The notes below the pieces were generated by a model, which did no database searches, was not told where the DNA came from, and saw nothing but the letters and a program-made list of their open reading frames with translations. Shown piece after piece: positions 5,716 through 59,491 of a DNA stretch of 64,000 nucleotides; positions within the stretch are counted from its first letter, which is position 1; the number at the start of each line of letters is the position of its first letter. This DNA is from Carya illinoinensis (lineage: Eukaryota > Streptophyta > Magnoliopsida > Fagales > Juglandaceae). The stretch covers positions 11,899,501-11,963,500 of the forward strand of contig NC_056758.1 in assembly GCF_018687715.1 (NCBI RefSeq), in the 5' to 3' direction. Both the position numbers and the translations under genes were made by a program.

Positions 5716-6973
5716 TGTTGTCCAGATGACTAACACAAGAGGAGGGTAAATTGAGTTATATTTAAAAGTTAAAAATTATAAATCAAATACACAATATAAA
5801 ATATAAACAAAATATGAAATATCAATAAATATAAAAAGTAAGGGTAAGAGAGAAACAAACTCAGTATGTTAACTAGATTTGGTCTTAGTGCTTATGTCCT
5901 TACCTCAAGCTATTCATTGAGAATCTCCAAATTTACTATTCAACTTCTTTAAGGTGGAGATAAAAATCTATTACGCTTTTGAACAATACCGCTATAAAAG
6001 ATCCGTGTAGAACACCATTTACACTTGCAATCACCTTACACGTGGTGATTCAACTATTCCCTATGTAGAACACTTTCTACATGCACAAGGGTTATACAAA
6101 CCCTTTTACTGATACAAGAGCTGATAGTGGGTAGATTATCAGAGAACACTCCTTAATGAGTGAAAAAAGAATAATACAGCGCAAACTATATCTCTCAAAA
6201 TGAATAAGGGTTAAGACTCAATACTTATAAAAGAGAGAATGAAAACTTTGAATGAATATTGTATGCTATTGGTGTTGTAAATGTGAAGCTCTCAATGATC
6301 TATTTCTAGGCATATGAGACATCATATTCAAATTTAAAAAGATTCATATGTCAAAGACAACATCATTCACTTTTCAAAAATTTCAAACCTAATTTTTTTA
6401 CTTTTTACATGTGACAAAAGGAGTACCATTTACTTTTCAAAATTTTCAAACAAAATCATTTACCTTTTGTATAAGTCAAAAATAGCATCAATTACTTTCG
6501 AAAATATTCAAATAAAGCATGCACATATGAAAAATGACAATTAATTATCTTTAATATTTTTAAAATTTTTCAAACAAAATCATATACTTTTTGCATAAGT
6601 CAAAAAGCGCATCAATCACTTTTGAAAATATTCAAATAAAGCATACACATGTGAAAGATGACAATTAATCATCTTTCAAAATTTTCAAAATATTCATACA
6701 TATGTGGAAAATATATTTTAATATTTTATTATAAAATTTTTAATTTTGAACCTTAATCCTGATTTCAAAAATTTAAGAGATTTATAATGTTACTCTACAA
6801 GCTTTAATATGAACTTGTTCCTTTTTTTATCATGGTTGGTTCCTTGATATGCTTGACTTCATTGTATAAATAATTTGAGTTTGAGACTCATTTATTCTTT
6901 GAATTCATTTGTTATCATCAAAATCAATGTGTAGATATATAATTACACGAAAGTTAAAACATTGGCTTCAACA
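5716..6973 (-). repeat. 3' LTR of Copia element 1
   Basis: It begins TGTTG and ends CAACA on the plus strand and pairs with 12907-14146 over its length, with many substitutions and small indels. On the minus strand it follows the polypurine run aaaaaaagtggagat. Confidence 0.88.
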
Positions 6974-7474
6974 ATCTCCACTTTTTTTATGATGACAAAT
7001 AATTGATAGAACCTGAAATTTGTATTAATACTTAAGCTCCCCCTGAGAATGTGCGTTAGTTTTTCAAGTAAAAGTATAAATATAATTTCAAGTATATATA
7101 ACAAGTTTAGCAATTCAAAAAATGTTAATATTCTAGTTTAAAACTTATCTCCATTTTGGCATCACTAAAAATGATCCGTAGTAAGTAAATGGACTGCAGA
7201 AAAAATGGTGTGTTAGAAAAAAAACTGTAAATAGTTGAAAAATTAGAACCGCTCGTGACTTGACAAGTGTTGCAAAGCCTTGAGGCCAAAATCTATGAAT
7301 TTAGTGTGGTTAGAGATTTAAAAAAATCGTCTGATTTTGTTGACAAACAGAATTGAGAGCTCTGAGTTTCTATAAAAAAAATTCATTTTCATCCATCGGA
7401 TATTAAAAAAAATCATATTGCTCCTTGACCTGAGTTCTGTTTTTCCATAACGACAGTATGCCCGAGCAATTCTT

Positions 7475-7481
7475 TATAAAA
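7475..7481 (+). promoter_or_regulatory. TATA-like box in front of the antisense frame of Copia 1
   Basis: TATAAAA lies 111 bp before the ATG at 7586, and the stretch between them is pyrimidine-rich with a second tatataa near 7530. The layout fits a plant core promoter with a short leader and resembles the one in front of the homologous frame at 24632-25057. This is inferred from sequence only. Confidence 0.45.
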
Positions 7482-7585
7482 CCAGTATTAAAATTCATCT
7501 AATTCGTATCGAATCTTATTCTCATCTATATAACTCATCTGCATTCTTTCAACATCCTCACTTTAAGTTTTCAATTCTTTTCTTA

Positions 7586-8023
7586 ATGACTCATTCTTCT
7601 AACATTCCTTTAGATCCATCCATGAGGTATTCTACACCTCAATCTCATGTCTTTTATGCAGCTGTCATTGGTGCCATGTTGCAACAAAAAAATAAAAATT
7701 TGGCTAACAATTCAGACTCCGATGCTATCTACGACTTTGTGAGCCTCGAGACTCGCTACCACTCCTCTATAGTTGCTTTTTTCCAATGACTACAAATTAG
7801 AAACCATGAGATTGAAAAGCTTAAAGAACAAATTGTTGTACTTTAACGAATTGTTCAAGAGTCTCACACAAGGGAAAGAATCTTTCGGCAAAAGAATAAA
7901 CAGTTGAAAACCCTATTAGATTCTTCATTCCGTTTGTCAGTTCTCATGGATAGAGATGACATGATATTGTACGAAGAGAATGAGCGTCTCAAACATGAGA
8001 CTAAGAACCTTAAGTTTATGTAA
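7586..8023 (+). pseudogene. Antisense reading frame (aORF-1) of Copia 1, coiled-coil-like protein, two stops
   Basis: The frame runs from ATG 7586 to TAA 8021-8023, 145 codons, opposite to gag-pol and just past the end of pol (about 8074), so the two converge. Only two in-frame stops break it, at codons 68 and 87. In the homologue at 24632-25057 those places are CGA (Arg) and CAG (Gln), so both stops look like C-to-T changes. Shared motifs are MRYS near residue 13, SDxxAIY near 44-49, VSL, SSIV, SSFRL near 113-117, DRD near 122 and ERLKxExKxLKF at the C-terminus. The second half is rich in E, K, L, Q and N and looks like a coiled coil. I see no signal peptide, membrane segment or metal-binding motif. 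I do not recognise the family. Homology to the second frame is plain; function is unknown. Confidence 0.75.
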
Positions 8024-8073
8024 AAGTATTTATAAGCATTTTCTCTCTATTTTTATTGACTCTGGTTTATTTT

Positions 8074-11000
8074 TTAAGAGACATTCATCGCATGAATCAT
8101 ACCTATTTTTCTTCTAATCATGCATAGTCTAACTTCTGGCAAAGTTTTTGTAAAAATATCTGTTAAATGATCTTGTGTGTTTGTAAACTCTAGTATTATA
8201 TCACATTTTTGCACATAATTTCAAAAAAAATGATATCTAATTTCAATATTTTTAGTTCTAGAATGTTGTATTGGGTTCTTTGAAAGACTTATAGCACTTG
8301 TATTATCACATTTGATTAAAATGTGATTATACATGAATTTAAAATATTCAAGTTATTGATTTATGTAAAAAACTTGAGCACAACAGCTACCCACAACAAC
8401 ATATTCTACCTCAGCAGTAGATAGTGCAACAAAATTTTACTTTTTACTAAATCAGAAAACTAGTGCATGACCTAAGAAATGACATGCTCCACTAGTGCTT
8501 TTTCGATCAATTTTACAACCAGTATAATCTGCATCTGTGAAGTTGATTAGATCGAAAGATATGTACTTAAGGTACCATAATCCTAAGTCAATTGTACCAC
8601 TATGATATCTAAAAATGTGCTTAATTACAATCAAATGAGATTCTTTTGGAGACGATTGAAAGCGTTAACATAAGCGCATACTGAACATAATATTTGGTCT
8701 ACTGGCTGTCAAATATAATAAGCTACCAATCATACCTCGATATATCTTCGAGTCAACTGACTTAGTGGTTTCATCTTCATCAAGTTTAGTGAATGGGCTC
8801 ATTGGTGTTCCAATTCTTTAGCACCTTCCATCCCAAACTTCTTGAGTAATTCCTTGATATATTTTGACTGATTGATGAATGTTCTATTTTTTGCTTACTT
8901 GACTTGCAATCCGAGAAAGAAAGTAAGTTCCCCCATCATGCTCATTTCAAATTCTTCCTGCATAGTCTTAGCAAAAACTTAGTACATATTTTCATTAGTA
9001 GCACTAAATATTATATCATCAACATAAATCTGAATCAAAAGAATATCATCATTTTCATGTTTAATGAAAAGAATTGTGTCGATTTTTCCTCTTAAAAAAC
9101 CTTTTTCAATCAAGAAACCATTGAGTCTCTTGTACAAAGCTCTAGAAGCTTATTTGAGCTGTTTATATAGTACTTTTGTGAGTTTGAAAAAATGATTTTG
9201 ATCAATATGATTTTCAAAACCTAGAGGTTGCTTAACATATACTCTTCATTTATAAAACCATTTAAGAAAGCACTTTTAACATCCATTTGAAAAAGTTTGA
9301 AATCTTTATAACAAGCATATGCAAGTAGCATTAGAATAGCTTCTAATTTTGCGGTTGGTGCATATGTCTCATTATAATCAATTTATTCTTCTTGATTGAA
9401 ATCTTGGACTACAAGTTGAGCCTTATTTGTAGTAATAACTCTGGACTCATCTTTCTTATTTCTAAAAATCCATTTTGTTCCAATAATAGTATAATTTTTG
9501 GGATTAAGAATAAGTGTTTAAATATCATTTCTTTCAAATTGATTCAGCTCTTCTTACATAACTAAAATCCAAGATTCATCAAGAAGTAATTAATCAATAT
9601 TTTTGGATTCAATCTGAGATAGAAAAGTAGTATGATTGCAAATATTTCCAAGAGATGACCAAGTACTTACGTCTCGTGAAGGTCCTCCCAAAATTTATTT
9701 CACTGGATAATCTTTCACAAATTTTTACTGTTTGGTTGCATCTTGTATTAAATTTTGATGATCTTTCCTGATGTCTCAATGTTGGACTTCCTCTATTGTG
9801 TTCTCTTTGTTGAGATTGAGACTTTCCGTATTATTTATACCTCATGTTTTCTCATCAATAGATTTCTTAGAAAGTATAGAATTAGATTCATTAAATACTA
9901 TATGCATAGATTCTTATACAGTCAAAGCCTTTTTATTGAATATTGTATAAGTTTTACTATTAGTAGAATACTCTATAAATATACATTCATTATATTTTGT
10001 GTAAAACTTGCCTAAATTATCTCTGTCATTCAAATAAAACATTTGCATTCAAATATATGAAAGTAACTAATGTTGAGTTTTTTCTCATTCCAAAACTCAT
10101 AGGGGGTTTTATCTAATTTAGACATTAGCATAATTCTATTTATAACATAGCATGCAGTACTTACCGCTTCGGCTAAAAAATAACTGGGCAAGTTGTTCTC
10201 ATTGAGTATTATTTTTACAATCTCTTGAAGAGATCTATTTTCCACTTTACTACCCCATTTTGTTAAGGAGTTCGAGGAGTAGAAAAATTATGCACAAAAC
10301 TATTTTCATCACAAAAAGTTTCAATATTTTTATTAACAAACTATTTTCCCCTATCACTTTAGATACTTAAAATAGTATAACCATTTTCATTTTGAATTCT
10401 CTTGCATAACTTGATAAAAGTATTATGTGAATTATCTTTATGAGCAAGAAAGATGACCCAAGTATATCTAGAGAAATCATCAATAATAACAAATACATAA
10501 TATTTTCTTCCAAAACTTGCAACTCTATTTGGTCCAAAAAGATCCATGTGTATCAGTTGCAGTGGTTTAGTAGTGGAAATATATTTTTTGGTTTTAAAAA
10601 AAGTTTTTGTTTGCTTACCAAATTAGCATGCATCACAAATTTTGTGTTTAAGAAAATTTGTCTGTGGTAAACCTCTCACAAGATCATTTTTTAAAATTTT
10701 GAAAATAAGTTCTATCTTGGCATGACTTAGTCTTCTATGCCATAACCAACTAGTTTCATTTTGAGCTGAAAAACAAATAGCATCTTGTGAGGCAATTTTT
10801 TCAAAATCGATTGTATGAACATGTTGCTTCTAAAAGTAATAAAACAAACATTGCAATCATCATCATTTAAAATAATGCACTTATCGATTTTAAAAGTAAC
10901 TGTAGATCGTTTATCACATAATTAATTTATATTCAAAGATTATACTTTAGACCTTCAACAAGTAGAACATCTTCAATTATGAGAGAAGATTCATTATCAA

Positions 11001-11217
11001 TTTTACATATTCCTACGATCTTCCATTTTGAGTTATTTCCAAATGGCACGTGTCCTTCTTCTTTAGATTTAAGATAAAAGAATTTAGTCTTGTCTCCCAT
11101 CATGTGTCTTGAATATCCATTATCTAAAAACCATTTGTTTTGCTTGTTGAGGACTTCATGCATACTTATAAAAACAATTAAAATGATTTTTTTTAATACC
11201 CAAGTTCTTTGGGTCAT
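8074..11217 (-). pseudogene. Copia 1 pol relic (protease, integrase, RT, RNase H)
   Basis: Segments in several frames match plant Copia pol. Protease is at about 11130, where the active-site motif reads LDNG instead of the usual LDSG. Integrase pieces are at 10359-10547 (MDLFGP, YYVFVIIDDFSRYTWV) and 10030-10245 (NRIMLM, KTPYEFW). Decayed reverse transcriptase is at about 8900-9700. RNase H is at 8452-8634 (DADYTGCKIDRKSTSG), with the C-terminal tail (DIFTKTLPE) ending near 8074. Many stops and frameshifts show it is dead. Confidence 0.85.
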
Positions 11218-11481
11218 TCATTTATTAGTATTAGAAGAAACAAGATTTTTAGGTATTCATATGACCCTAATAGTAATTATATGTTTTTTTCTAATAGAAT
11301 AAGCATGATAATTATGACAATTTCTATTACAAAAATTGCAAATAGTATGTGGCATATATAAATAATTTGAGTGATTGTAATAGTATCTTTATTTGACAAA
11401 ATTATTTTTATAAAAAGAATTTTGAATACTGGACTTTGATGTAAAAAAATTATCAAAAAAGTTTTTATAAAATTTGTATTT

Positions 11482-12850
11482 TTATTTTGACATATATCTC
11501 AGGCCTGCCTTTTCAAAAACACATATTTGACTACCAAGAAATTTTTCAAAATTTCTTTTTCCATTCGTAAAATTTTCAATAATATTTTTTAAATCAGTTA
11601 TTTTCTTCTTCAAGTCAAGATTTTTATCTTTCAAAATGATGTTTTCTTTTCTTAAAACATCAATTTCGTTTGTTAAAGAAGAATTTTTCTTTTTCAAAGT
11701 AGTATACTTGATACTCAATTTTTCAAGTTCCTTATATACCTCTTCTAGGACATTTTGCAATTCTTCATATAAAGGATTTTCAATATTATCATGATTTGTT
11801 ACCTCAAAGTCATTTTTAGCCATAAGACAAAGATTTACTGTTCTTCATTACTTGCTTCACTATCTGAGTTACGTGAATCATCATCTCATATAGTTTTCAT
11901 TTCTTTCTTGCCCTTGTTTTAATCTTTTTTTAGTAGAGGACAATCTGATTTGATATGTCTAGGCTTATTGTATTTATAACAAATTAAAAAGTCATTTTTA
12001 CCTGTATCTTTCTTGAAAATTTTTTTGAAAGATTTATTCGGAAAAGTTTTATTTTTTTTAAGAATCTTTTAATTCTTCTTATCATCATCGCAACTTCTTT
12101 ATTTTTGCCGTCATTTTTCTCATCTTCATCATTTTCACTTTCATAAGAAACAGCTTTAAGTGCCAAGCTCTTCTTTGGCTTTCTTTCTTCTTCTCCTATT
12201 TTCAATATGTACTCATGGGTGGTAAGTGACCCAATGAGTTCATTAACTTCGAGCTTCTTGAGATCTCTAATTTAAAAAATCACTGTCACTTTTGATTCCC
12301 AGCGTTTTGGTAAAGAGTGGAGAATATTTATTACTATCTCCACATTGGAATAAACTTTGTCAAGAGCTGTCAAACTGTTTATGATGTTAGAAAAATGAGT
12401 GTACATACTAGAAATAGATTCATCATCATTCATCTTAAACATTTCATATTCATGAGTAAGAATATAAATTTTTGATTTCTTGACTTGCGAAATTCCTTCA
12501 GAAGTAACTTCCAAGTTATTCCAAATTTCCTTAACCTTAGGACAAGTCATTATTCTATTAAACTCATTTCCATTGAGAGCATTATATAATAAATTCATAC
12601 CTATTAAATTCAATGTATAAAGTCTATTGTCTTCATGATCAAACTCTTCATCTTCCTTTCGGACATTTACTCCATTAACTACTTTTGTTGGAATATAAGG
12701 TCCATTTACAATGCATTTCCAAATTTCTCGACTTTGAATTTGAAAGAATATTCTCGTTCTAACTTTTCAGAATGAATAATTGTCTCCACAAGAGAGTGGA
12801 GGCTGACTACTAGATTAACTTTCATAAAAGGAAGCTGCAATATTAGCCAT
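11482..12850 (-). pseudogene. Copia 1 gag relic
   Basis: It begins at the ATG complementary to 12848-12850 and is broken soon after by a stop. Residues from 12613 down form the UBN2-type gag domain (LYNALNGNEFNRI, KEIWNNLEVTSEG, LHSLPKRWE). A lysine-rich stretch follows, then a zinc knuckle near 11945 in which the second cysteine has become tyrosine (CYKYNKPRHIKSDC). A coiled-coil segment at 11482-11823 precedes the protease, as is usual in this Copia type. Confidence 0.8.
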
Positions 12851-12892
12851 AAGATCTTAACTCTAAATAGTTAATTTTATAACAGAGCTTTT

Positions 12893-12904
12893 GTTCTGAT
12901 ACCA
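12893..12904 (-). promoter_or_regulatory. Primer-binding site of Copia 1
   Basis: The minus strand reads TGGTATCAGAAC two bases inside the 5' LTR. It matches the initiator-Met tRNA 3' end used by many plant retroelements except for one late base, and it fixes the element's direction. Confidence 0.8.
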
Positions 12905-12906
12905 AT

Positions 12907-14146
12907 TGTTGCCCAGATAACTAACACAAGAGGGGGTAAATTGAGTTGTATTTAAAAATTATAAATTATAAATTAAATACACAATATAAAATATAAACAA
13001 AATACGAAACAACAATAAATATAAAGAGTAAGGGTAAAAAAGAAGCAAACTCAGTATGTTAATGAGTTACGGCCCCAATGCTTACGTCCTCATTTCAAGT
13101 TATCCCTTGAGGATCCCAAAATTCACTATTCAACCTCTTTCAGATGGAGATAGAAATCTATTACACATTTGAACAACACCACTACAAAGGATTCGTGTAG
13201 TACACCCTCTATACTTACAATCACCTTACACGTGATGATTCAACTATTCCCTGTGTAGAACATTATCTACACGCACAAGGGTTATACATACTCTTTTACA
13301 GATACAAAAGCTAATATTGGGTAGGTTATAAAAAAATACTCATCAATAAGTGAAAAAAGAACAATACAACGTAAACTATATTTTTCAAAATGAATAAGAG
13401 TTAAATCTCAATGCTTATATGAATGTTGTATACTCTTGGTGTTGTAAATGTGAAGCTCTCAAATGATCTATTTATAGGCATATGAGATTTCATATTCAAA
13501 TTTAAAAAGATTCACATGTCAAAGACAATATCATTCACTTTTTCTAAAAATTCAAATAAAAGTTTCTTCTTTTTCATTTGTCAAAAATAATATCATTCAC
13601 TTTTTAAAAATTTCAAACATAATCTTTTTACTTTTCACATATGACAAAAGGAGTATTATTTACTTTTCAAAATTTTCAAACAAAATCATCTACCTTTTAC
13701 ATAAATAAAAAAGAATATCAATCACTTTTGAAAATATTCAAATAAAGCATACACATGTGAAAGATGATAATAAATCATCTTTAATATTTTCAAAATTCAA
13801 ATTTTTAATCATGTCATACATATGTGAAAAATGATTTTTCATAATTTTTAAATTTAGTTTTTAAAATATTTATGCACAAGTGGAAAATATATTTTAATAT
13901 TTTATGATAAAATTTTAATTTTGAACCTTAATTTTAATTTCAAATTTTTAAGAAATTTATAACATTATTCTAAGTTTTAATATGAACTTGTTTTCTTCTT
14001 AGTTATATTTAGTTCTTTGATGTGCTTGATTTTATTGTCTAAATAATTTAAGATTGAGATTTTTTTATTATTTGAATTTATTTGTTATTATTAAAATAAA
14101 TGTGTAGATATATAATTATATGAAATTTAAAATCTTAGATTTAACA
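12907..14146 (-). repeat. 5' LTR of Copia element 1
   Basis: It starts TGTTGCCCAGATAAC and ends TTTAACA on the plus strand, pairing with 5716-6973. The divergence is visible throughout. Confidence 0.88.
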
Positions 14147-20764: not shown

Positions 20765-21149
20765 TGTTATAAACTATCTTGAATTGTATGACCACATTTA
20801 TCTAGTCGTCAAATGCATAGTGCATAGTGCTAGCATAGTACTAGCATAGTGAGTTGGTCGACATATGCATAGTGCATAGTACTAGCATAGTGAGTTGGCC
20901 GACATATGCATAGTGCATAGTGCTAGCATAGTACTAGCATAGTAAGTTGGCTGACATATGCATAGTGCATAGTGCTAGCATAGTGCAGCATAGTAAGCTA
21001 GCATAGTTCCCTTTGTACGCCTATATATATCGTTGAATTCTTTAAGAAATTCATAAGTTTCATAACCTTTCTGAGCTCTATCTCTTTCTCTCTCCTTTTA
21101 AAAGTTTTATAATACGTTATAACTCTCTATTTTCTATGATTTCATAACA
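20765..21149 (+). repeat. 5' LTR of Copia element 2, with internal tandem repeats
   Basis: It starts TGTTATAAAC and ends TTCATAACA. At about 20815-21000 it holds three to four imperfect copies of a roughly 50-60-bp unit built from gcatagtgctagcatagtac and gagttggccgacatatg. A stretch with tatatata near 21025 may serve as a promoter. Confidence 0.9.
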
Positions 21150-21165
21150 CGTTATCAGCACGAAT
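21150..21165 (+). promoter_or_regulatory. Primer-binding site region of Copia 2
   Basis: The bases after the LTR read cgttatcagcacgaa. This is not the initiator-Met type seen in Copia 1 and the LARD, which supports Copia 2 being a different lineage. The tRNA partner is not assigned here. Confidence 0.6.
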
Positions 21166-21306
21166 GTTCTGACGATTTTGAAGCTAATAGTCCTCTACTT
21201 CAAGTAAGTTTTTCAATATATTTTTATAGTTTCCAAAATGAATATGAAATGTTACATTACTTAATGAAAACTCTATACTTATGTTCCTGATTTATATATG
21301 TAAAAA

Positions 21307-22356
21307 ATGTCAAATCTTACAAAATTGGAATTCGTTGCTCTTGACATTTCTGGGAAAAATTATTTATCTTGGATCCTTGATGCTGAGATCCATCTGGATG
21401 CAATGAACCTGGGAGATACAATTAAAGAAGGAAATCAAGGGTCTCTGCAGGACCGTACTAAGATAATGATTTTCCTTCGGCACCATCTTCATGAAGAATT
21501 AAAAACTGAGTATTTAACGGTGAAAGATCCACTTATTTTGTGAAATGATTTAAGAGAGAGATATGAACACCAGAAAACTGTAATCCTCCCAAAAGCTCGT
21601 CATGATTGGATGCACCTGAGGTTGCAAGACTTCAAGAGTGTTAGTGAGTATAACTCTGCACTCTTTAAAATTAGCTCGCTATTAAAATTATGTGGTGAAA
21701 AAGTCACTGATAATGACTTGTTAGAGAAGACATATACTACTTTTCATGCCTCGAATGTGCTCCTGCAGCAGCAGTATCGAGAGCGAAAGTTCAAGAAATA
21801 TTTTGAACTTATATCTTGTCTTCTATTAGCTGAGCAAAATAATGAGCTTTTGTTAAGAAATCACCAGTCACGTCCTACTGGTTCTATATCATTCCCTGAA
21901 GTGAATGGTACTAGATTTAAATCATTCCCAAAAGCGAATGGTGCATATTTTCAAAAGAAAAGAGGACGTAGACGTGGTAGGAAAAACTATGGAAGTGGAA
22001 GTCCTAGAAGTGACCATACTAAAAGGGACAATAATAGATATACACCGTACCACCAGAAGTGGTTCAACTCAGAGAAGGGCAAAGGTCCCCAAAACAAATT
22101 TTTAAAGAAAGATGAAGATGGATGCCATAGATGTGGCATGACTGGACATTGGGCTCGTATCTGTTGTACAGATAAGCACTTGGTTGACTTATATCAATCT
22201 TCTATAAAAGAAAAAACAAAGAAATTTGAAACAAATTTTACTGAACCATCATATGCTTTAGATTCTATAGATGGAGAAGATATTATAAGTCTTGATGTTT
22301 CTGATTTCTTTGAGGATTCTAGTGGTAGAGTTGATCATAAAAGTGTTCCTTTTTAA
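21307..22356 (+). pseudogene. Copia 2 gag with one in-frame stop
   Basis: The frame starts MSNLTKLEFVALDISG and continues through a gag (UBN2-type) domain to a basic region (KKRGRRRGRKN) and a correct CCHC zinc knuckle, CHRCGMTGHWARIC, near 22130. It ends at TAA 22354-22356. One TGA at 21541-21543 replaces an expected Trp codon, and the frame is otherwise open on both sides. Gag forms the particle that packages element RNA. With the stop it would give only a 78-residue product or an internally started one. Confidence 0.85.
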
Positions 22357-24631
22357 TTAATATATTTCCTTTATCTTATTATAAAATATTTTTATATTTA
22401 GCAATGTTTTGTAGTAATAAAAGTTTTATTTATTCTTTTATACTTGTTATAAATTATTGATGATATGATTTATCTGAGAATGGAAATGGAGCATCCCTGA
22501 AGGATCGCCCTAAATCAATAATTTTATTGAGTATCTCATATGAGTGATACTTGTACCAAAAACTCATTATGATTTATGTACCTGAAGTTGCATAATTGAA
22601 ATTGTGGAAAGAATATATATTTGAATGAACGTCTCGAATGTGCTCCTGAAGTAGCAATATCGAGTATGCTCCTGAAGTAGCAATATGAAATGCAAACGTT
22701 CACAATATATTCTAAATCTGTATCAGTGACTGAGCAAAATAATGAGCTTTTGATAAGAATCATTATTCATGTCTTACTAGATCTACATCATTCCCTGAAG
22801 CGAATGATAATGAATTTATATCATTCTATTCCCTGAAGTGAAAAGAATGATGCGTTTCATTCAAAGAAACTAAGAGATTGGACGTGATAATGAATATCTT
22901 TTCGGGCCAGAAGCTCGTATTGGAAAAGCTGTAAGCTTTCTCTTTGAGATGATATTATACAAATTATTGAATCAAATATTATGATGAATCAAAAGGTGAT
23001 ATGATTCAAAATATTTGTATCTTTTCATGGTTATCTTGATCATCCAAAATTAATTACGATAAGTCGAATGATTTTCATATGGACGTCCATAAAAGAACCA
23101 GAAGATTCTTTTACTATAAAGTTTTACCACCAAAAGTGGAAAGAAAAATTTGCTTGAAACAAATAAGATGAAATTATTCGATGTTATCTTGATTATCATA
23201 TGTGAACCAGAAGTTTAGATGATAATTAAATTTTGGATACAATAAGATAAAAATGTCTCATATTCTAGCTGCTAAAATCCCAACGAGGATTGAAGTCCCT
23301 GTAGGACAATTAAGAAATTTAGCAGTCTAAAGACATGTATAAAGGCATATGTGACTTATCGATACAAAAGATAGAGTATCTCAAAAGAGAAAGGCATAAA
23401 TAATTTGGTGCTCCTGAAGAGGTCATTCCCACAAAACAAGCAATAAAGTCCATCCAAATTCTCTGTATAAAATTCTCCTATATAAACTCTTGAAAAGTGC
23501 CTCCTGAAGAGGTTTTTCATGAAAATGTCTTCCCTTGAAGAGGGACAGGTACCTGAAAATAATGAGATCTCGTTACATTTCATGAATAATGGAGAAATTA
23601 TGGATAGAAATAAAATCGTTGTCGACAACGTATTTCCATATGAGATGGCAATTGACATTACCAGAAGTAATGATGAAAGTGAATCAAGAATCGTCGAAAA
23701 ATACGACGTAAAATATTGGCCAAATTTGAAAGAAACAATTCCTGCAGAATTGATTCACTAGTAAAATATGATGCATCGGGACTTATAGTCCAAACACCTA
23801 AAGAGGTGATGCTTGTTGAATATCAGTGAGTATTTATGGAAAGGAAATAAAAATGTGATATATAAATCACGAGTCAGTTTCTCAATTCCTGCAGAATTGA
23901 TATCACTAAGTAAAATGTGATAAATATGGACTTGAAGTCCAAACACCTAAAGATGTGATTTTTGTTAAATATCAGTGGATATTTATATACATGATATAAA
24001 AAGCCTGAAGCTTTTAGTATGAAAATGTGATATAGAACTCACAAGTTAGTTTTTCGAAGAAACAATATTAATATGATTTTAAAGTGGTTGAAATCATATT
24101 GAGATTTTTATTAGGTTGAAAGTTACTGAGAGTTTGGATATGCATGATTAACTGCATATTTATATGGATCATTGGATTATGATATATATATATATATATA
24201 TGAAAATCCCTGAAGGATAGAAAATGTCTGAAGCTTCTAATATGAATACATCTGGAAATATGTATTCTATCAAGTTTAAAAGATCCTTATATGATCTAAA
24301 GCAATCCAAACGGAAATGAAAACAAGCTATTATTGCAGTTTATATATATGATTTAAATGTCATTGAGGCTCCAGAAGAGCTCATAAAAACTGCACATATT
24401 TAAAATATAAATCTGAAACCCTTGCGGCTTCAAGGGGAAGATGGATGATGCTATTAGTCATGAAATACCATCTTTTAATACAATTAGTATTTCAGATTCA
24501 TATTATGGGTTTGATATGAAGTGTGCATTATTAAAGAAGAAATAAAAGGGAGCACAAAGAACATCTACCAAAAGATAGAAACACAAATATGAATATTTGT
24601 GAAATATTATTTTATTATCTTGAAGCAAGAA

Positions 24632-25057
24632 TTACAGAAATTTGAGGCACTTTGCCTCATTCTTTAAACGCTCTTGTTCTTCAAGAATCTGCATGGCATC
24701 CCTATCTAAAGGGGTGGGCAATCGAAAAGAAGATTTAAGCAAGGATTTTAAATTCCTATTCTCTTACTTTATTGATTCTATCTTCGTGTTGGACTCCAGA
24801 AGAAGTCGCTGAAGTATAGCAATATTCTCGTGGAGATTGTCAACTCTATAAGTTCTGGATTGCAGTCGCTGAGAAAATGTGACAATGGATGATGACTATC
24901 GGGTACCGAGACTCACAAGCTCATAGATAGCTTCATTATCTGACCTATGAGTCAGATCATTATATTGCATAATAGCACCTGTGGTAGAAGCAGGTACAGC
25001 TGATGAACGAGGTGCAGAGTACCTCATATATTGGCTATGAGAAGATCGCTGAGCCAT
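24632..25057 (-). pseudogene. Antisense reading frame (aORF-2) of Copia 2, homologue of aORF-1
   Basis: The frame runs from ATG (25057-25055) to TAA (24634-24632), 141 codons, opposite to gag-pol. It has two in-frame stops, at codons 54 and 98. It aligns with 7586-8023 almost end to end with few small gaps: MRYSAP, SDNEAIYELVSL, SSSIVTFSQRLQSR, SSFRL, LDRDAMQILEEQERL and AKCLKFL. The C-terminal half is rich in E, K, L and R, as expected of a coiled coil. It lies between RT and RNase H remnants of pol, unlike aORF-1, which lies after pol. The N-terminal third is more variable than the rest. Family and function are unknown to me. The conserved length and start argue for a real protein in the ancestors. 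Confidence 0.75.
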
Positions 25058-25145
25058 TGTAGGATAAGAATGCAGAGTAAAAATGCAGTATGATTACAGA
25101 AAATTGAAGAAGATAAGATGCGAATGAAGATGAGCTGAATATCTC

Positions 25146-25152
25146 TTTTATA
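25146..25152 (-). promoter_or_regulatory. TATA-like box in front of aORF-2
   Basis: The minus strand reads CTATAAAAGAG about 90 bp before the ATG, followed by a leader rich in C and T. The spacing and leader type match those of aORF-1. Confidence 0.5.
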
Positions 25153-25590
25153 GAGAAAATTATGATATAGCATCTCTCTTGAAGCAAGAGAAAAGAGACG
25201 AAATGTAGCTTCATAGCTTTGCGGCGCCTGACAGCACGCCTGACACCTACAGAGGAGTTGAAAATCTGCGGTGCTTGTCTGATTTTAAAAGGCTGGCCAC
25301 CGTTTTTATTAAAACATAAGGTTAGCGGTTTAATGTTGATGAATTCTCCACTAACTGTGTTATTTACAAGAACTCCAGAAGAGTACAACTCCAGAAGAGT
25401 AGTGATGAGCAGAAAGATCTAGTTGTGATTATTTTATCAACATGGATCAAGTCCACAGTTAGTTGGATGTACAGATGCGAGTTACCTTTCAGATACACAT
25501 AAGAAGATCATTGCAATTCATGAGAAGAAAGTTGAAATTGATATCAAGAAGGTACGGTCAAGTAAAAATCTGGCAGATTTATTCACTAAA

Positions 25591-25736
25591 GCATTACCAA
25601 CTGCAACATTTAAGAAGATTATGCAGAACATTGGAATGCGGAGGTTTGAAGACCTGTTATCATGCACTACCAACTGCAACATTTAAGAACATTATGCAGA
25701 ATATTGGAATGCGGAGGTTTGAAGACCTGTTATCAT
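25591..25736 (+). repeat. 73-bp tandem duplication in the RNase H tail
   Basis: 25591-25663 and 25664-25736 are near-identical copies that start gcattaccaactgcaac and gcactaccaactgcaac. They repeat the ALPTATFK to GLKT region of the pol remnant. Confidence 0.85.
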
Positions 25737-25978
25737 GCACTTTTCAGGGGAAGTAATATATTGAAGACTTGTGCTGATTGTACTCTTTTTCCTTCGCTAA
25801 GGTTTTATCCCACTGGGTTTTCCTTTGCAAGGTTTTAATGAGGCAATCCTAAAGCACTCGGTGATACACATGAATACTGTATTCTTTTTCCTTCGCCATT
25901 GGTTTTTTCCCACAGGGTTTTTCTTTGGCAAGGTTTTAACGAGACATATTCTTTAAATATGGTCATCCAAAGGGGAAG

Positions 25979-26113
25979 TGTTATAAACTATCTTGAATTG
26001 TATGACCACATTTATCTAGTCGTCAAATGCATAATGCATAGTGCTAGTATAGTACTAGCATAGTGAGTTGGTCGACATATGCATAGTGCATAGTGCTAGC
26101 ATAGTACTAGCAT
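25979..26113 (+). repeat. 3' LTR of Copia 2, left part
   Basis: It starts TGTTATAAAC like 20765 and stops at the LARD insertion. The last five bases, agcat, are the target duplication and are repeated at 33776-33780. Confidence 0.9.
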
Positions 26114-28327
26114 TGTGACACCCCCAAATCCCCACGCCCGAACACGGGGAAATCGAGACGTCCGGATGGTGACAACCCGGGTCACCATCCTATCGACGGG
26201 TGCCAAGTGTGTGTAAGGCAACATAAGTGTACAAAGAAACACGCAGCGGATAACGAAAGTCATAACTAAGTAGCAGAATTTTTCTTAACGTAATACAAGC
26301 TGTTTAAAACATACATAGATAAAATATTACAAAAACACAAATACAGTTTTAAACCAAATATAAAGCATAGCATCAGCAACCCGGCGGAGCCGCATCCTCG
26401 GGCTCAGCCTCTTCCTCTTCGTCCTCCAACTCTGCACCAAAAGCTACGGAACCAAAATGGTACCGCAGGTAAGTAAAACCCAAACACTACCAGATAAAAA
26501 CACATAGAACTTAAACAAAATGCATGAAGCATGCCCGATGCACAAAACCCAAAAACATAATTTTCCACACACGCCAAAAACCCATTTGGCCCAAAAACAC
26601 ATCCTTTCCGAAAAACACGCCAAAAGTCACATTTGGCCTTTATCCGTCTCAAACCATTATCCATATTAACCGTATGCACCATGACCTCCCCTAGGGGTCA
26701 TCCGCACACCCTGGCTCCAGTGCCACACCGCAGAGTACCACCACGCATGTGACACCTAACGAGCGATGCCCAGTTCCGTGCCCCGCACGTTCGTAGCCAA
26801 GCATCCTCTAGCCCTCACCAGCGAAGGGCCACGGAATCGGTGAGTAGAGCGATGCCCGGTTCCGCGCCCGGCGCGTTCGTAGCCAAGCAACCCCTAGCCC
26901 CCGCTCCCGTCGTCTAGCGACAACTCAGGGGACATCACTCAGTTTATTCCGCTCCCGAGTGACCAGAGGAGCTCCACCGGAATAATACCCCATCCCGGCT
27001 TGGGGTCGTGATACACACGCACCCGTAAGACCACTTACGCCAATACACAGGCTTTTCACACATAAACAAAAACACACGTGCATGCACCATGTAATGCCAT
27101 ATCAATGCATAATAAAATAATCCAACAACATAAAACAATAAAACAAGCAACTCCGTCCTCCATCCATCCGACCCCCGAACTCCTCGGACTCAGTCCGGAA
27201 TCAGCCAACCAACAAATAAAATAATTGAATGAGCAATATATTTTTAAATCTGAAAATAGGGTTTGGAAAATACTTACAGCGCTATACGGTAATTTTAGAA
27301 AACACCCGGCGTTGCAAACGGCGGAGAAAAAACAACGTAACAGTGTAATTTACACTGTTGTCGTGGGTAATAAATTACCCATTTTCGAACGGGGACAAAC
27401 CAAGGCTCGGGATTGATAGGGAATGGCCTTGAGATATTTATGAAGCTAAGGGAAATGAGTTTTGGCCGTGGGTGGTGGTGGAAATGGCGGTCGAAGGCCA
27501 AAAAAGGGCTGAACGGAGTTAAGCTTGTGGGAGCTGCTCCGGCAACGGATCGAGGCCAGAAATGGGTGGTTTAGGTCGGCAAGAGGTAGGGGAAGAAGCT
27601 GTGAAAAGATGGTGGCCGGAGGTGGTGCGACGGCGCCGGAAACGGTGAAAAACCGTATGGCTTGGAGGAGCTCGTGGCGGCTAACGGTGGCTCGGATGGA
27701 GGTGAAACTTGGTGGGGATGTTCACCGGTGAGAGGGGAAGAAAATTGGGTGGGTGGTGTCGGCCACGCCACCGGCGAGCGGCGGTTCTGGGCTGCGAAAG
27801 CAACCGGCGACAGGGGCAAAAACAGAGCAGGTGCAGCGACTTCCGGCGGCTCTCGAAAGCTAATGGCTGGTCCGATGGCTCTGAAAATTGGTGGGGATGA
27901 TCTCTGGTGGAAGGGGAAGAGAATGGTGGTGACGGCGCACCAAACGGTGGCCGGACGGCGGAGAACTGGCCGGTCAAAGTGGCGGCGATGGGAATGAGAA
28001 AAAGGGGCAGCTGGGCGTACGTGGGAGAGAAAGGAGAAGAAAGAAGAAGAAAAGAAAGAAAAAGAAAGAAAAAGAAGGAAAAAGAAAAGGAAAAAGGGAA
28101 AAAGAAAAAGAGGAAAGAAAAGAAATGAGGTCCAATCCTCACTCCGGAGACCAAAAACCGATCCGCCGAAAACGATATTAAAAACCGTAAAACGACTAAA
28201 ATAAATTAAACACATCAAATAAATTAAAACCAATTAAAACACATTAATTTAAAATAAATAAACCAATATATTATTCAAATTAAAAACAACCCTTCAGTGA
28301 AAATACACGTAAAAATGGGGTATCACA
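26114..28327 (-). repeat. 3' LTR of the LARD
   Basis: It is nearly identical to 31563-33775. On the minus strand it holds a polypyrimidine block (rc of 28030-28120) and GC-rich sequence, which produce long spurious frames on both strands. Confidence 0.93.
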
Positions 28328-28340
28328 TCCTCCCCCCCTT
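28328..28340 (-). promoter_or_regulatory. Polypurine tract of the LARD
   Basis: On the minus strand a run of A and G (AAGGGGGGGAGGA) directly precedes the 3' LTR. This is the usual plus-strand DNA primer site. Confidence 0.85.
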
Positions 28341-31300
28341 AAAATAAATTTCGTCCTCGAAATTTGCAAGATCAACCACCAGCGCCAAAAAGATACAGGA
28401 TACAACTCTGAATATAACTGAGAGATACATGTCATCGACAACTCCCAATAAATCCAATGGTTATTATCTTTACACCATAAATTACTAATATCCACGACGT
28501 CTCTGCTTTACCTTCCAAACTTTCATCCCATTCCAACTTTGGTAACTTAATAGCCACTTCCAAAGTTAACCATCCATAAACCAAATTGCACAATCAAAAG
28601 ATTAATCTCCCATTAAAACTTCGAATCACTACTAATCCTTCAAAATCAACACAAAATATTGAACTTCTAAGAATCTCCAAAAATCATGCTTTCGCGCGCA
28701 CTCTGATAACTCACCAACATACAAAAAGACTGTATCCTCATAAATTAACACCCTTGAGTACAAGCTAACTCTAACACCTAGAAGCAAGAAAATCCTTTAC
28801 CACACTTTGATAGAAAATAAAATCTCCCAAAATCATGAATCATCACTCCTATCCCTCAATTATCTCTAGCTACCTTAATCAAATCAAGATTCCTCAATGA
28901 CACCCATGATCCTCAACAAAAAGACAATATCAATCAATTGCAACTTCCAAATTAAAAACAAGTAACATTATCTCAAAATACGCCAATCTCATCTAAGATA
29001 AAGAACATAAGGCTCGAATCCATCCCGACCAACTAATAAAGCACCTATAACTCCTACCCAACAACTTACACTATCAAGATCATCACCTAAATTCTGAATA
29101 TCGTCTAAATTTAGAGATGACTAAATACACTACGAACCACGATTGAATTCACCATAACCTTAATGAACCCTTCTTGAAAACTCAATTACCTACTTCCATT
29201 CTCATAACCCTAGTAGTAGCACGACTATTTCCTTCAATTGCATACAAAATTAAATCTCAAGATAGGCCATGCTGTTCATATCTCCAATCCATCAAAACTA
29301 TTGCACTACCCTCCTAACTCCTACTGCTTATTACCTCACGTACCTGCTTAGGCTAATCACCGTTGATTCCCCAGCTTCCACTTTCAAGATTTTATTATCC
29401 ACTACACATTGTGACCCAACAATCTCTCAAGTTAAATAAAATGTCTATAACTCTCCCAACTGGACACTCAAACTCCAAAGGAAAGTATAGCCTCAAAATT
29501 TAAATTCCTATGTGACCTCAAGTCACAATTAATTCTTAGAGATAGTCTCAATAATTAATGCCAACCATCACTCCAATTGGTAACCCACTTCAACTCTACA
29601 CTCCGATCAACTCACCAAGAACTCAAAGTTATGATCTATTGAATTTAATACTATCACATCTAATCCACTTCAGTACTCACCAAAGCCACTTCTCTCAAGC
29701 CAAAAAGAGACTAGGATTTGTACTCTCCGAAATCCATACACCCTCACCACCACTATAAATGGATCTCATGTACCCTTAGCTAAGATCAATAATCATTCTA
29801 ACGTATAAGTGATCCATTATTTCCATTTCCAACATCCGTACCTATATCGTCAAAATAAACGAAAATCATTTCCCAAAACCTGCATCATCTATTATCCTCA
29901 ACTCGGTATGAATCAATCCTAAAACTTATCACTATAACCTCGAGCTATAACAATTATTGCCAACCTACATTCCATTGAGTAACACGCCTAGACTGAACAC
30001 TCCAATCGATTCACCACTATCACGTGTCGATCTCATACGTCCTTAGTCGAAACCAATAGTCATTCTAACGTACAAGTAATCCATTACTACTATTTCCATC
30101 ATCTGGACTTATATCTGCAAATCAACATGAATCATTCCTATATCTGCTTAACTTATACCCTTAACATCAGCAAATAGTTATCGCTTAAAGCTTTGTACTG
30201 AAAATGACCTTAAACCTGCTAATAATCCGTTCCCAAAAGTCTCCGGAATATGAGGTCTCAACTTCAATCGAATTCAATACCAACAATTAAACTATTGCTT
30301 CCAAAACCTCAATGGATCTATTTCTTCCGAACCGACAAAAATCATTTCCTAAAATCGATTACTACAACCTCGAGTTAACAATAGTCATTTTCTGAACTAA
30401 GTCAATATCTACAATCCTCAAAGAAGTATATGAGCTAGATCATTACCTTCCATTCTCAAAGAAATCTACTCTAGAAAAATTTTCATATCAATAACTCAAC
30501 TCTAATCAACCCCATTTTAATGGTTACAAACTAATCACTCACCAGAGTAGATCAAGCTACAGCACTAAGTCTGTAAAACTAAGAACTCAATTCTTATTAT
30601 AAGTCAATCCTTCTACTCTGCAATTCTAAAACCTTAAATCAAATAAGAATCATCTTCCGGCACTTCTAAGATCAAACAACTTACATCCCATAATAGAAAA
30701 AAAAAAATCAACTCCCAAATCTTTCAAATTCTAAAACATTAATAGATAATAAATCATTTTCTGAAATCCTCAAGATTGATGGCTTTAATCCAAAACATTC
30801 ACCTTAAAAGCTTGTAAATTTTAAAACCCTAATTGCCACCAAATTGCTCATTCGAATCAGCGAAATTAAAACTTGGAATTTAATTATTTCCTCCAAAGCT
30901 TGTCGAACCTAAAACCTCAATTACCAAAATCTTATTTTCTAAAATCTATAAGGCCTCAAACCTTAGATAAAATTATCTTAAACCAATCCTTAAAGTTCGT
31001 TGAACCTACACTCTCCTATTCTATAGCTTCATTACATAAATTCTACAAAACCTAAGACCTCAACCATCTTAAGCGACTTAAAGCTAACTCCCCTCCTTAG
31101 TTGCAACTTACATTCCTACTCCCAAGAAATTGTCTAATCCATGTCGTTCCCTTCTAACCACAATATTATAAAAGTAACCCACCTCTATAAAATTCAACCC
31201 TACTTCACTAAGTATTTTTTTTTTTTCTATCAACGACATTCTCAATAGTACTGTCCTCCTGCCATAGCACAATCCTCAACCCCACTTTAACTTCGGACAA

Positions 31301-31543
31301 AACAAAACAAAACAACTTAAAACAAAATAAATAAAACAAATAAACAACATACTTGCAATTCAAATAAAATAAAATCAAACCAAACCAAATCAAATGGAAT
31401 AAAATAAAATAAATTCAAATCAAATAAAATCGAATCAAGTTAAAGAAAAACAAATCAACTTAAATAAATTAAAACAAATTTAACACCAGCTTTTAAAACT
31501 TTCTGGTACTCCACCTATGGGACATATGGTTTTACCCAGAGCC
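28341..31543 (-). other. LARD inside region, non-coding
   Basis: It is rich in C and A on the plus strand, with only short frames of 60-70 codons. Loosely repeated phrases such as aaaacctcaat and cctaagacctcaa recur, most clearly at about 30300-31080. No protease, RT, integrase or RNase H motif was found on either strand. Confidence 0.75.
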
Positions 31544-31560
31544 AAACCGCTCTGATACCA
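31544..31560 (-). promoter_or_regulatory. Primer-binding site of the LARD
   Basis: The minus strand reads TGGTATCAGAGCGGTTT two bases from the 5' LTR, the initiator-Met type. Confidence 0.88.
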
Positions 31561-31562
31561 CC

Positions 31563-33775
31563 TGTGACGCCCCCAAATCCCCACGCCCGAACACGGGAAA
31601 TCGAGACGTCCGGATGGTGACAACCCGGGTCACCATCCTATCGACGGGTGCCAAGTGTGTGTAAGGCAACATAAGTGTACAAAGAAACACGCAGCGGATA
31701 ACGAAAGTCATAACTAAGTACCAGAATTTTTCTTAACGTAATACAAGCTGTTTAAAACATACATAGATAAAATATTACAAAAACACAAATACAGTTTTAA
31801 ACCAAATATAAAGCATAGCATCAGCAACCCAGCGGAGCCGCATCCTAGGGCTCAGCCTCTTCCTCTTCGTCCTCCAACTCTGCACCAAAAGCTACGGAAC
31901 CAAAATGGTACCGCAGGTAAGTAAAACCCAAACACTACCAAATAAAAACACATAGAACTCAAACAAAATGCATGAAGCATGCCCGATGCACAAAACCCAA
32001 AAACATAAGTTTCCACACACGCCAAAAACCCATTTGGCCCAAAAACACATCCTTTCCGAAAAACACGCCAAAAGTCACATTTGGCCTTTATCCGTCTCAA
32101 ACCATTATCCATATTAACCGTATGCACCATGACCTCCCCTAGGGGTCATCCGCACACCCTGGCTCCAGTGCCACACCGCAGAGTACCACCACGCATGTGA
32201 CACCTAACGAGCGATGCCTAGTTCCGTGCCCCGCACGTTCGTAGCCAAGCATCCTCTAGCCCTCACCAGCTAAGGGCCACGGAGTCGGTGCGTAGAGCGA
32301 TGCCCGGTTCCGCGCCCGGCGCGTTCGTAGCCAAGCAACCCCTAGCCCCCGCTCCCGTCGTCTAGCGACAACTCAGGGGACATCACTCAGTTTATTCCGC
32401 TCCCGAGTGACCAGAGGAGGTCCACCGGGATAATACCCCATCCCGGCTTGGGGTCGTGATACACACGCACCCGTAAGACCACTTACGCCAATACACAGGC
32501 TTTTCACACATAAACAAAAACACACGTGCATGCACCATGTAATGCCATATCAATGCATAATAAAATAATCCAACAACATAAAACAATAAAACAAGCAACT
32601 CCGTCCTCCATCCATCAGACCCCCGAACTCCTCGGACTCAGTCTGGAATCAGCCAACCAATAAATAAAATAATTGAATGAGCAATATATTTTTAAATCTG
32701 AAAATAGGGTTTGGAAAATACTTACAGCGCTATACGGTAATTTTAGAAAACACCCGGCGTTGCAAACGGCAGAGAAAAAGCAACGTAACAGTGTAATTTA
32801 CACTGTTGTCGTGGGTAATAAATTACCCATTTTCGAACGGGGACAAACCAAGGCTCGGGATTGATAGGAAATGGCCTTGAGATATTTATGAAGTTAAGGG
32901 AAATGAGTTTTGGCCGTGGGTGGTGGTGGAAATGGCGGTCGAAGGCCAAAAAAGGGCTGAACGGAGTTGAGCTCGTGGGAGCTGCTCCGGCAACGGATCG
33001 AGGCCGGAAATGGGTGGTTTAGGTCGGCAAGAGGTAGGGGAAGAAGCTGTGAAAAGATGGTGGCCAGAGGTGGTGCGACGGCGCCGAAAACGGTGAAAAA
33101 CTGTATGGCTTGGAGGAGCTCGTGGCGGCTAACGGTGGCTCGGATGGAGGTGAAACTTGGTGGGGATGTTCACCGGTGAGAGGGAAAGAAAACTGGGTGG
33201 GTGGTGTTGGCCACGCCGCCGGCGAGCGGCGGTTCTGGGCTGCGAAAGCAACCGGCGACAGGGGCAAAAACAGAGCAGGTGCAACGACTTCCGGCGGCTT
33301 TCGAAAGCTAACGGCTGGTACGATGGCTCTGAAAATTGGTGGGGATGATCTCTGGTGGAAGGGGAAGAGAATGGTGGTGACGGCACACCAAACGGTGGCC
33401 GGACGGCGGAGAACTGGCCGGTCAAAGTGGCGGCGACCGGAATGAGAAAAAGGGGCAGCTGGGCGTACGTGGGAGAGAAAAGAGAAGAAAGAAGAAGAAA
33501 AGAAAGAAAAAGAAAGAAAAAGAAGGAAAAAGAAAAGGAAAAAGGGAAAAAGAAAAAGAGGAAAGAAAAGAAATGAGGTCCAATCATCACTCCGGAGACC
33601 AAAAACCGATTCGCCAAAAACGATATTGAAAACTGTAAAACGACTAAAATAAATTAAACACATCAAATAAATTAAAACCAATTAAAACACATTAATTTAA
33701 AATAAATAAACCAATATATTATTCAAATTAAAAACAACCCTTTAGTGAAAATACACGTAAAAACGAGGTATCACA
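31563..33775 (-). repeat. 5' LTR of the LARD
   Basis: It starts tgtgacgcccccaaatc on the plus strand and ends ggtatcaca, and pairs with 26114-28327. Confidence 0.93.
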
Positions 33776-42584: not shown

Positions 42585-42717
42585 AAGAGGATGTAAAGTC
42601 TCCTCTAAACACTCTCTCGCTGAGAGGAAATAGGTGGAGTGTGTGAGTCTTGGCGCTCTTGAGTGGCTGAGGTAGTTACTTCCCCTTGATCAAACTCTAT
42701 AGATTAAGGTGGGAAGA

Positions 42718-55733: not shown

Positions 55734-59491
<3,758 letters not shown>

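Follow-up and report, generated by a model that had tools for sequence, protein, structure and literature searches.

Some plant LTR retrotransposons bear an extra antisense gene, and why they do so is an open question. In the parts of the literature covered here, the plant antisense extra genes which are named belong to Gypsy elements, and the closest described system is the aORF-3R type (maize Grande gene23, rice RIRE2, Silene Retand and bean pvRetro13), which lies antisense to gag-pol in the interval between pol and the 3′ LTR. Gene23 of Grande has an upstream promoter of its own, from which it is read in antisense, and gives a nuclear product according to the available part of PMC7264820, and for the Retand products a regulatory role is proposed, not shown, in the available part of PMC11963269.

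For plant Copia elements, 63 of the 65 families of common bean are described as being without an extra ORF and the other two have env-like ORFs in sense orientation (PMC4093653, in the part available), and a broad plant survey, which took extra ORFs from 250 codons upwards, recorded them in 582 Copia elements and scored their orientation (PMC6317226, likewise in part). Antisense Copia ORFs may already be recorded in that survey, though none of the length considered here, because a gene of 145 codons is missed by its floor of 250 codons. SIRE-type Copia elements have an extra ORF (eORF-3′F, env-like) near the 3′ end of the element, as here, but the SIRE-type ORFs are sense in the available part of PMC6317226, whereas both copies described below are antisense. 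Among the matches listed from open-licence papers, judged by title and start of abstract, none reports an antisense accessory protein in a plant Copia element. AtRE1 and Mdoryco1-1 are Copia elements. They are cited for antisense promoters of plant retrotransposons in PMC7264820, the available part of which describes no conserved protein for them. In bdelloid rotifers, ORF3 types are common to different retroelement types and are read as gene sharing (PMC5408684, in the part available); these are enzymes or envelope-like products of animals, unlike the plant family described here.

Here we analyzed a 64,000-nt stretch of the Carya illinoinensis genome (NC_056758.1, 11,899,501-11,963,500, forward strand), called the window hereafter, which holds two related frames on the strand opposite to gag-pol.

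7586..8023, plus strand: antisense ORF, copy 1, 145 codons from ATG, two internal stops
24632..25057, minus strand: antisense ORF, copy 2, 141 codons from ATG, two internal stops

The products of the two frames are homologous (63 of 133 positions identical with 2 gap positions, E 5e-40 in a single pairwise comparison) and the alignment spans nearly the whole length of both. The presence of homologous antisense frames in two Copia-type elements is thus confirmed as a real observation, and the sequence-only reading was correct in its placing of the two frames, their ATG starts, their 145 and 141 codons and their relationship. Its remark that two of the four internal stops can be explained as C-to-T changes fits the alignment, in which a sense codon stands at the same site of the other copy at all four stops. 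When a profile of 16 relatives was run against all six frames of the window, these two frames were found, with scores of 212.4 and 194.8, and every further match scored below 2.

Copy 1 is carried by the following element.

5716..14146, minus strand: host element 1, Copia, with an LTR pair and gag and pol pieces
12907..14146, minus strand: 5′ LTR, 1240 bp
12893..12906, minus strand: primer-binding site, placed beside the 5′ LTR and presumably resembling that for initiator-tRNA-Met
12275..12766, minus strand: gag piece (Retrotran_gag_2, E 2.5e-22)
10936..11217, minus strand: Pol_BBD piece (E 5.7e-13)
10362..10622, minus strand: integrase core piece (rve, E 1.5e-9)
8982..9382, minus strand: reverse transcriptase pieces (RVT_2, E 2.6e-10, and E 8.4e-6, which is below the Pfam cut-off)
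8077..8220, minus strand: last piece of pol, which we take by its motif to be RNase H; no Pfam match
8074-8076, minus strand: pol stop, directly after the RNase H piece
6974..6988, minus strand: polypurine tract, labelled from its position adjoining the 3′ LTR
5716..6973, minus strand: 3′ LTR, 1258 bp

The integrase of element 1 comes before a reverse transcriptase of RVT_2 type, its gag is of copia type and its LTRs form a pair, as in Ty1/copia elements; with Retrotran_gag_2, rve and RVT_2 present and integrase before reverse transcriptase, it is not a Ty3/gypsy element. The LTRs of this old element agree in 1027 of the 1224 columns compared (83.9%, with a few bases of flank counted in). Copy 1 is placed tail to tail with pol, 50 bp beyond the pol stop and with no overlap of pol, and it therefore falls in the interval from pol to the 3′ LTR.

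Copy 2 is carried by a second element.

20765..26117, plus strand: host element 2, Copia-type, its pol badly decayed and its 3′ LTR truncated at roughly 26117
20765..21149, plus strand: 5′ LTR, about 385 bp, with the 3′ boundary placed by eye
21304..22356, plus strand: gag, in two pieces of 79 and 270 residues with one stop between them
24221..24400, plus strand: remnant upstream of the antisense ORF, taken by its motif to be reverse transcriptase; no Pfam match
25429..25683, plus strand: RNase H remnant, downstream of the antisense ORF; no Pfam match
25969..25978, plus strand: polypurine tract, labelled from its position adjoining the 3′ LTR
25979..26117, plus strand: 3′ LTR fragment, matching the element's own 5′ LTR

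For the second gag piece of element 2, Pfam gives matches under the cut-offs to zf-CCHC (E 0.0025) and to Retrotran_gag_2 (E 0.034), and the first piece has no Pfam match. The RNase H remnant gives a weak match to the RNase H end of element 1 (13 of 38, E 1e-6), and the reverse transcriptase and RNase H labels are our assumption in so far as they rest partly on motifs. The structure, the weak Pfam matches and the motifs suggest that element 2 is Copia-type. Its 3′ LTR fragment is 98% identical to the 5′ LTR over 130 nt (125 of 139 ungapped over the whole fragment), and if this fragment is a fair clock, element 2 would have moved with a broken pol and with gag and the antisense frame nearly open. 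Copy 2 sits among the pol remnants, between those of reverse transcriptase and RNase H.

The antisense frame is the only match between elements 1 and 2 in blastn at E <= 0.01, and their gag pieces are dissimilar (best E 0.98). The hosts therefore differ in gag and in LTR length (1240 and 1258 bp against about 385 bp), as had been proposed from the sequence. The earlier description of the frames as opposite to gag-pol is correct for orientation, which is antisense in both elements, but not for place, as copy 1 lies beyond pol, between pol and the 3′ LTR, and copy 2 lies within the pol remnants and not in that interval. Since the place relative to pol differs between the two elements, this argues for repeated acquisition or exchange of a cassette, and against simple inheritance.

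Other features were also observed in the window. A nearly intact LINE-like element at 42709-48218 (plus strand) has two ORFs, one of 462 aa and one of 1374 aa, the longer being reverse-transcriptase-like by eye, and two nearly identical frames of 220 aa at 27571-28233 and 33019-33681 (minus strand) stand around about 5 kb and are possibly the two LTRs of another element. The DNA between these two frames has a very strong GC skew at 28001-32000 (-0.42 and -0.41 in two 2-kb bins), and a frame of 264 aa at 58697-59491 (minus strand) encodes what we take by eye to resemble a secreted cysteine-rich receptor-like plant protein.

The antisense frame was selected as a protein, under purifying selection. 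In the codon alignment of copies 1 and 2 (141 pairs), 57, 34 and 78 differences are found at codon positions 1, 2 and 3, and pN/pS is 0.49 (95% bootstrap interval 0.38-0.62, with 0 of 2000 replicates at 1 or above), well below 1 in the comparison between copies that the sequence-only reading had suggested; dN/dS is estimated at 0.26, dS being 1.6 and hence near saturation. When the same DNA is read in the other five frames, pN/pS is 0.60-1.61, the amino-acid identity is 0.23-0.36 against 0.46 in the true frame, and each copy has 7-14 stops against 2. The lowest control pN/pS, 0.60 for the reverse strand with shift 1, falls within the range that the bootstrap gives for the true frame, and as the selected frame this one is ruled out by its 9 and 7 stops.

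Relatives of the protein were collected by three protein searches, which gave 11 matches among 136 candidates, 20 among 1932 and 29 among 5238. In the last search 28 relatives have E 5e-24 or better, and P0029 (E 4.7), which is not a relative, was left out. Uninterrupted homologues, which the earlier reading had named as a check on its claim, do exist: 11 of the 28 are open throughout and aligned end to end (P0001-P0004, P0006, P0012-P0015, P0024 and P0026), and P0027 and P0028 have 119 residues with a shorter N-terminal part. The nearest uninterrupted relative of copy 1 is P0001 (117 of 145 identical) and that of copy 2 is P0002 (133 of 141 identical). Every relative filed under a plant name, 3 of the 28, is from Carya illinoinensis (P0005, P0007 and P0019), and these three are annotated as chromosomal genes; none of the 28 relatives from the three protein searches has a named function. 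For 10 of the 11 full-length relatives the longest source contigs are 588-1666 bases, and P0003 has one of 7686; such short contigs would suit transcripts. P0024 and P0028 bear a Streptomyces label, but their contigs reach no more than 1013 and 673 bases, and both are probably plant contamination in bacterial assemblies. No homologous locus was confirmed among 589 pattern matches in genome contigs, or among 20, 18 and 30 pattern matches in viral contigs.

A tree was made from 23 rows, that is, 21 relatives and the two window copies; P0029 was left out, as were the seven rows P0008-P0011 and P0018-P0020, which are partial or odd. Three groups were obtained, in which copy 1 stands with P0001, P0003, P0004, P0005 and P0007, copy 2 stands with P0002, P0006, P0012, P0016 and P0017, and the other 11 rows form the third, whose split from the first two is supported at 98/97. 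The uninterrupted relatives are distributed over all three.

The full-length relatives (n=11) have products of 16.1-17.2 kDa. Eight of these have a pI of 8.7-9.7, and the remaining three, P0014, P0024 and P0026, one of 6.7-6.8. The AlphaFold2 model of P0003, made with 16 sequences, has a mean pLDDT of 80.6 and a pTM of only 0.42, and shows helices at residues 25-40, 44-114 and 123-143; residues 1-18 are of low confidence, and the N-terminus is probably disordered. The hydrophobic residues of the long helix recur with a period of 3.5 residues (heptad) in all three relatives tested, and for these a fraction of only 0.002-0.0045 of 2000 shuffles is as periodic. The predicted long helix and the heptads bear out the coiled-coil character which was first read from the sequence, and the product is likely a coiled-coil dimer. 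An SMC domain implies a coiled coil. The SMC domain of some bean ORF2 proteins (PMC4093653, in the part available) may resemble the coiled-coil character found here. A second coiled-coil-rich stretch, this one in sense orientation, occurs at 11482-11823 (minus strand) within the gag-pol part of element 1, and by the family profile it matches the antisense protein at chance level only.

Neither window copy has a Pfam match above cut-off, and no pol or envelope domain of the sense strand, which had been raised earlier as a possible source of homology, was found in Pfam. The 16 relatives give scattered matches of coiled-coil type, the commonest among the matches listed being HAP1_N (6 of 16, best E 3.7e-4), and none of these is meaningful as a known domain. 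Matches to 9 distinct PDB sequences (best E 0.036) and, by Foldseek, to 1 PDB structure (E 7.7) and 13 viral proteins (E 1.8 or worse) were also rejected as not meaningful. Transposase_28 (PF04195) is not among the matches of the two window copies or P0003, nor among the 25 of 48 families listed for the 16 relatives.

Conservation extends beyond the frame to a TATA box and a leader.

7470-7483, plus strand: TATA box TTCTTTATAAAACC upstream of the ATG of copy 1
7470..7585, plus strand: TATA box and leader of copy 1, alignable with the counterpart in copy 2
25143-25157, minus strand: TATA box TTCTCTATAAAAGAG upstream of the ATG of copy 2
25058..25157, minus strand: TATA box and leader of copy 2, a region conserved in the source of the relative P0011
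24611..24616, minus strand: AATAAA of copy 2, 15 nt past the stop, a possible polyadenylation signal
24618-24630 and 25177-25189: 13-bp palindromic direct repeat TCTTGAAGCAAGA, flanking the antisense unit of element 2

TATAAAA starts 111 nt before the ATG in copy 1 and 95 nt before it in copy 2, and the stretches from TATA to ATG align with a global score of 23.5, where the best of 1000 shuffles reached 19.5 (0 of 1000 as good). The conservation has limits on both sides, as the next 110 nt upstream of TATA do not align between the copies (425 of 1000 shuffles as good), and the same holds for the 110 nt downstream of the stop (151 of 1000 as good). The promoter region of P0011 is identical to that of copy 2 at 47 of 55 positions, both being read there in a non-coding frame, and the predicted protein of P0011 starts early. 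TATA box, leader and ORF together have the predicted anatomy of a separate transcription unit. The 13-bp repeat around this unit in element 2, a length that 0 of 500 shuffles reached, could have a regulatory role or be the scar of an insertion. The homology between P0011 and copy 2 extends about 46 bp past the upstream copy of the repeat, and therefore the repeat is not the boundary of a simple insertion; a retrogene insertion through it is not supported, on this ground and for want of a poly(A) before the 3′ copy.

On these data we lean towards a small accessory gene which is carried antisense by plant Copia retrotransposons as a putative unit of TATA promoter, leader and ORF, the ORF being about 141-148 codons. 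The LTR of the element would drive gag-pol, and the internal promoter would drive a short mRNA of its own on the opposite strand. In copy 1 this mRNA would stop close to the end of pol, and in copy 2 at the AATAAA of the unit. The encoded protein, 16-17 kDa and mostly basic, would probably dimerise as a coiled coil through the heptads of a helix of about 70 residues, next to a conserved C-terminal helix, and it would most likely act in trans on the element's own cycle, as a nuclear regulator or as a partner of Gag or nucleic acid, in the way proposed for the antisense genes of Gypsy elements; recombination between elements may have spread the unit. In favour of such a gene, the antisense orientation is identical in both copies, the protein frame present in the two Copia-type elements is selected and uninterrupted homologues occur. 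Against it, both window copies are broken and the host elements are two, in one window. The different place of the copies relative to pol is evidence against a fixed gene inherited within one lineage. The antisense accessory gene first proposed from the sequence is thus supported in part; that it belongs to Copia families at large, that it is expressed and that it has a structural or regulatory role are putative.

That difference in place would also suit a unit that is cargo, that is, a gene of a host family or of another mobile element or virus, captured by chance together with its promoter and without any role in the element. The three Carya relatives annotated as chromosomal genes (P0005, P0007 and P0019) point the same way, a promoter-plus-ORF unit has the look of a captured gene, and the 13-bp direct repeat on either side of it in element 2 might have arisen by target-site duplication, but the homology of P0011 runs about 46 bp beyond its upstream copy. 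Both copies are antisense, which speaks against capture by chance, none of the relatives found has a named function, and several Carya paralogues fit a mobile family, though they would fit a gene family too. On balance we consider cargo unlikely, while giving it real weight. It is a good deal less probable that the antisense transcript is what matters, and not the protein, by pairing with gag-pol RNA and tuning the element through small RNA or interference. The conserved TATA box and leader would suit such a transcript, and there are parallels in the available parts of three papers, in which double-stranded RNA is raised as a possible role of antisense transcription (PMC7264820), antisense RNA affects Ty1 (PMC12786077) and self-encoded antisense ORFs serve as copy-number control in other elements (PMC11624286); however, the selection tracks the protein reading frame and 28 conserved proteins are found, so that an RNA could act alongside the protein and not instead of it. 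We give hardly any credence to a chance or by-product frame, whose similarity would come from shared sense-strand pol or LTR sequence. The copies do lie within or beside pol in both elements, but the sense frames have 7-13 stops and identities of 0.23-0.36 against 0.46, copy 1 is beyond the pol stop, neither copy has a Pfam match above cut-off, and the frame is the sole DNA shared at blastn E <= 0.01; an origin of the similarity in sense-strand pol is contradicted by the frame statistics, the place of copy 1 and blastn.

The accessory gene that we favour resembles the aORF-3R genes in being antisense to gag-pol, and copy 1 shares with them the interval between pol and the 3′ LTR, whereas copy 2 is inside pol remnants. 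The upstream promoter of Grande gene23 may have its likeness in the TATA box and leader conserved between the copies, a putative promoter. The hosts of the aORF-3R genes are Gypsy elements, whereas those described here are Copia-type; the Retand products carry Transposase_28/TRP28, which was not found in this family, and the bean ORF2 products are of 347-939 aa among the values shown in the available part of PMC4093653, against about 141-148 aa here. Our best reading is that the family may work like the Gypsy antisense genes without being one of them, the comparison with gene23, RIRE2 and pvRetro13 being by description only. For the wider claim, namely an undescribed family of small antisense coiled-coil genes in at least two plant Copia lineages, in the form of an exchangeable promoter-leader-ORF cassette which evolved independently of its Gypsy counterpart, we see the chances as even.

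The analysis also serves as a warning that length floors, such as the 250 codons applied in PMC6317226 (in the part available), hide small genes. A small conserved antisense protein of Copia elements without a known domain, if true, would suggest that such genes arose repeatedly and are useful to the element, and it would provide a compact protein for tests. If the cassette does move between lineages, retrotransposons would be trading accessory genes.
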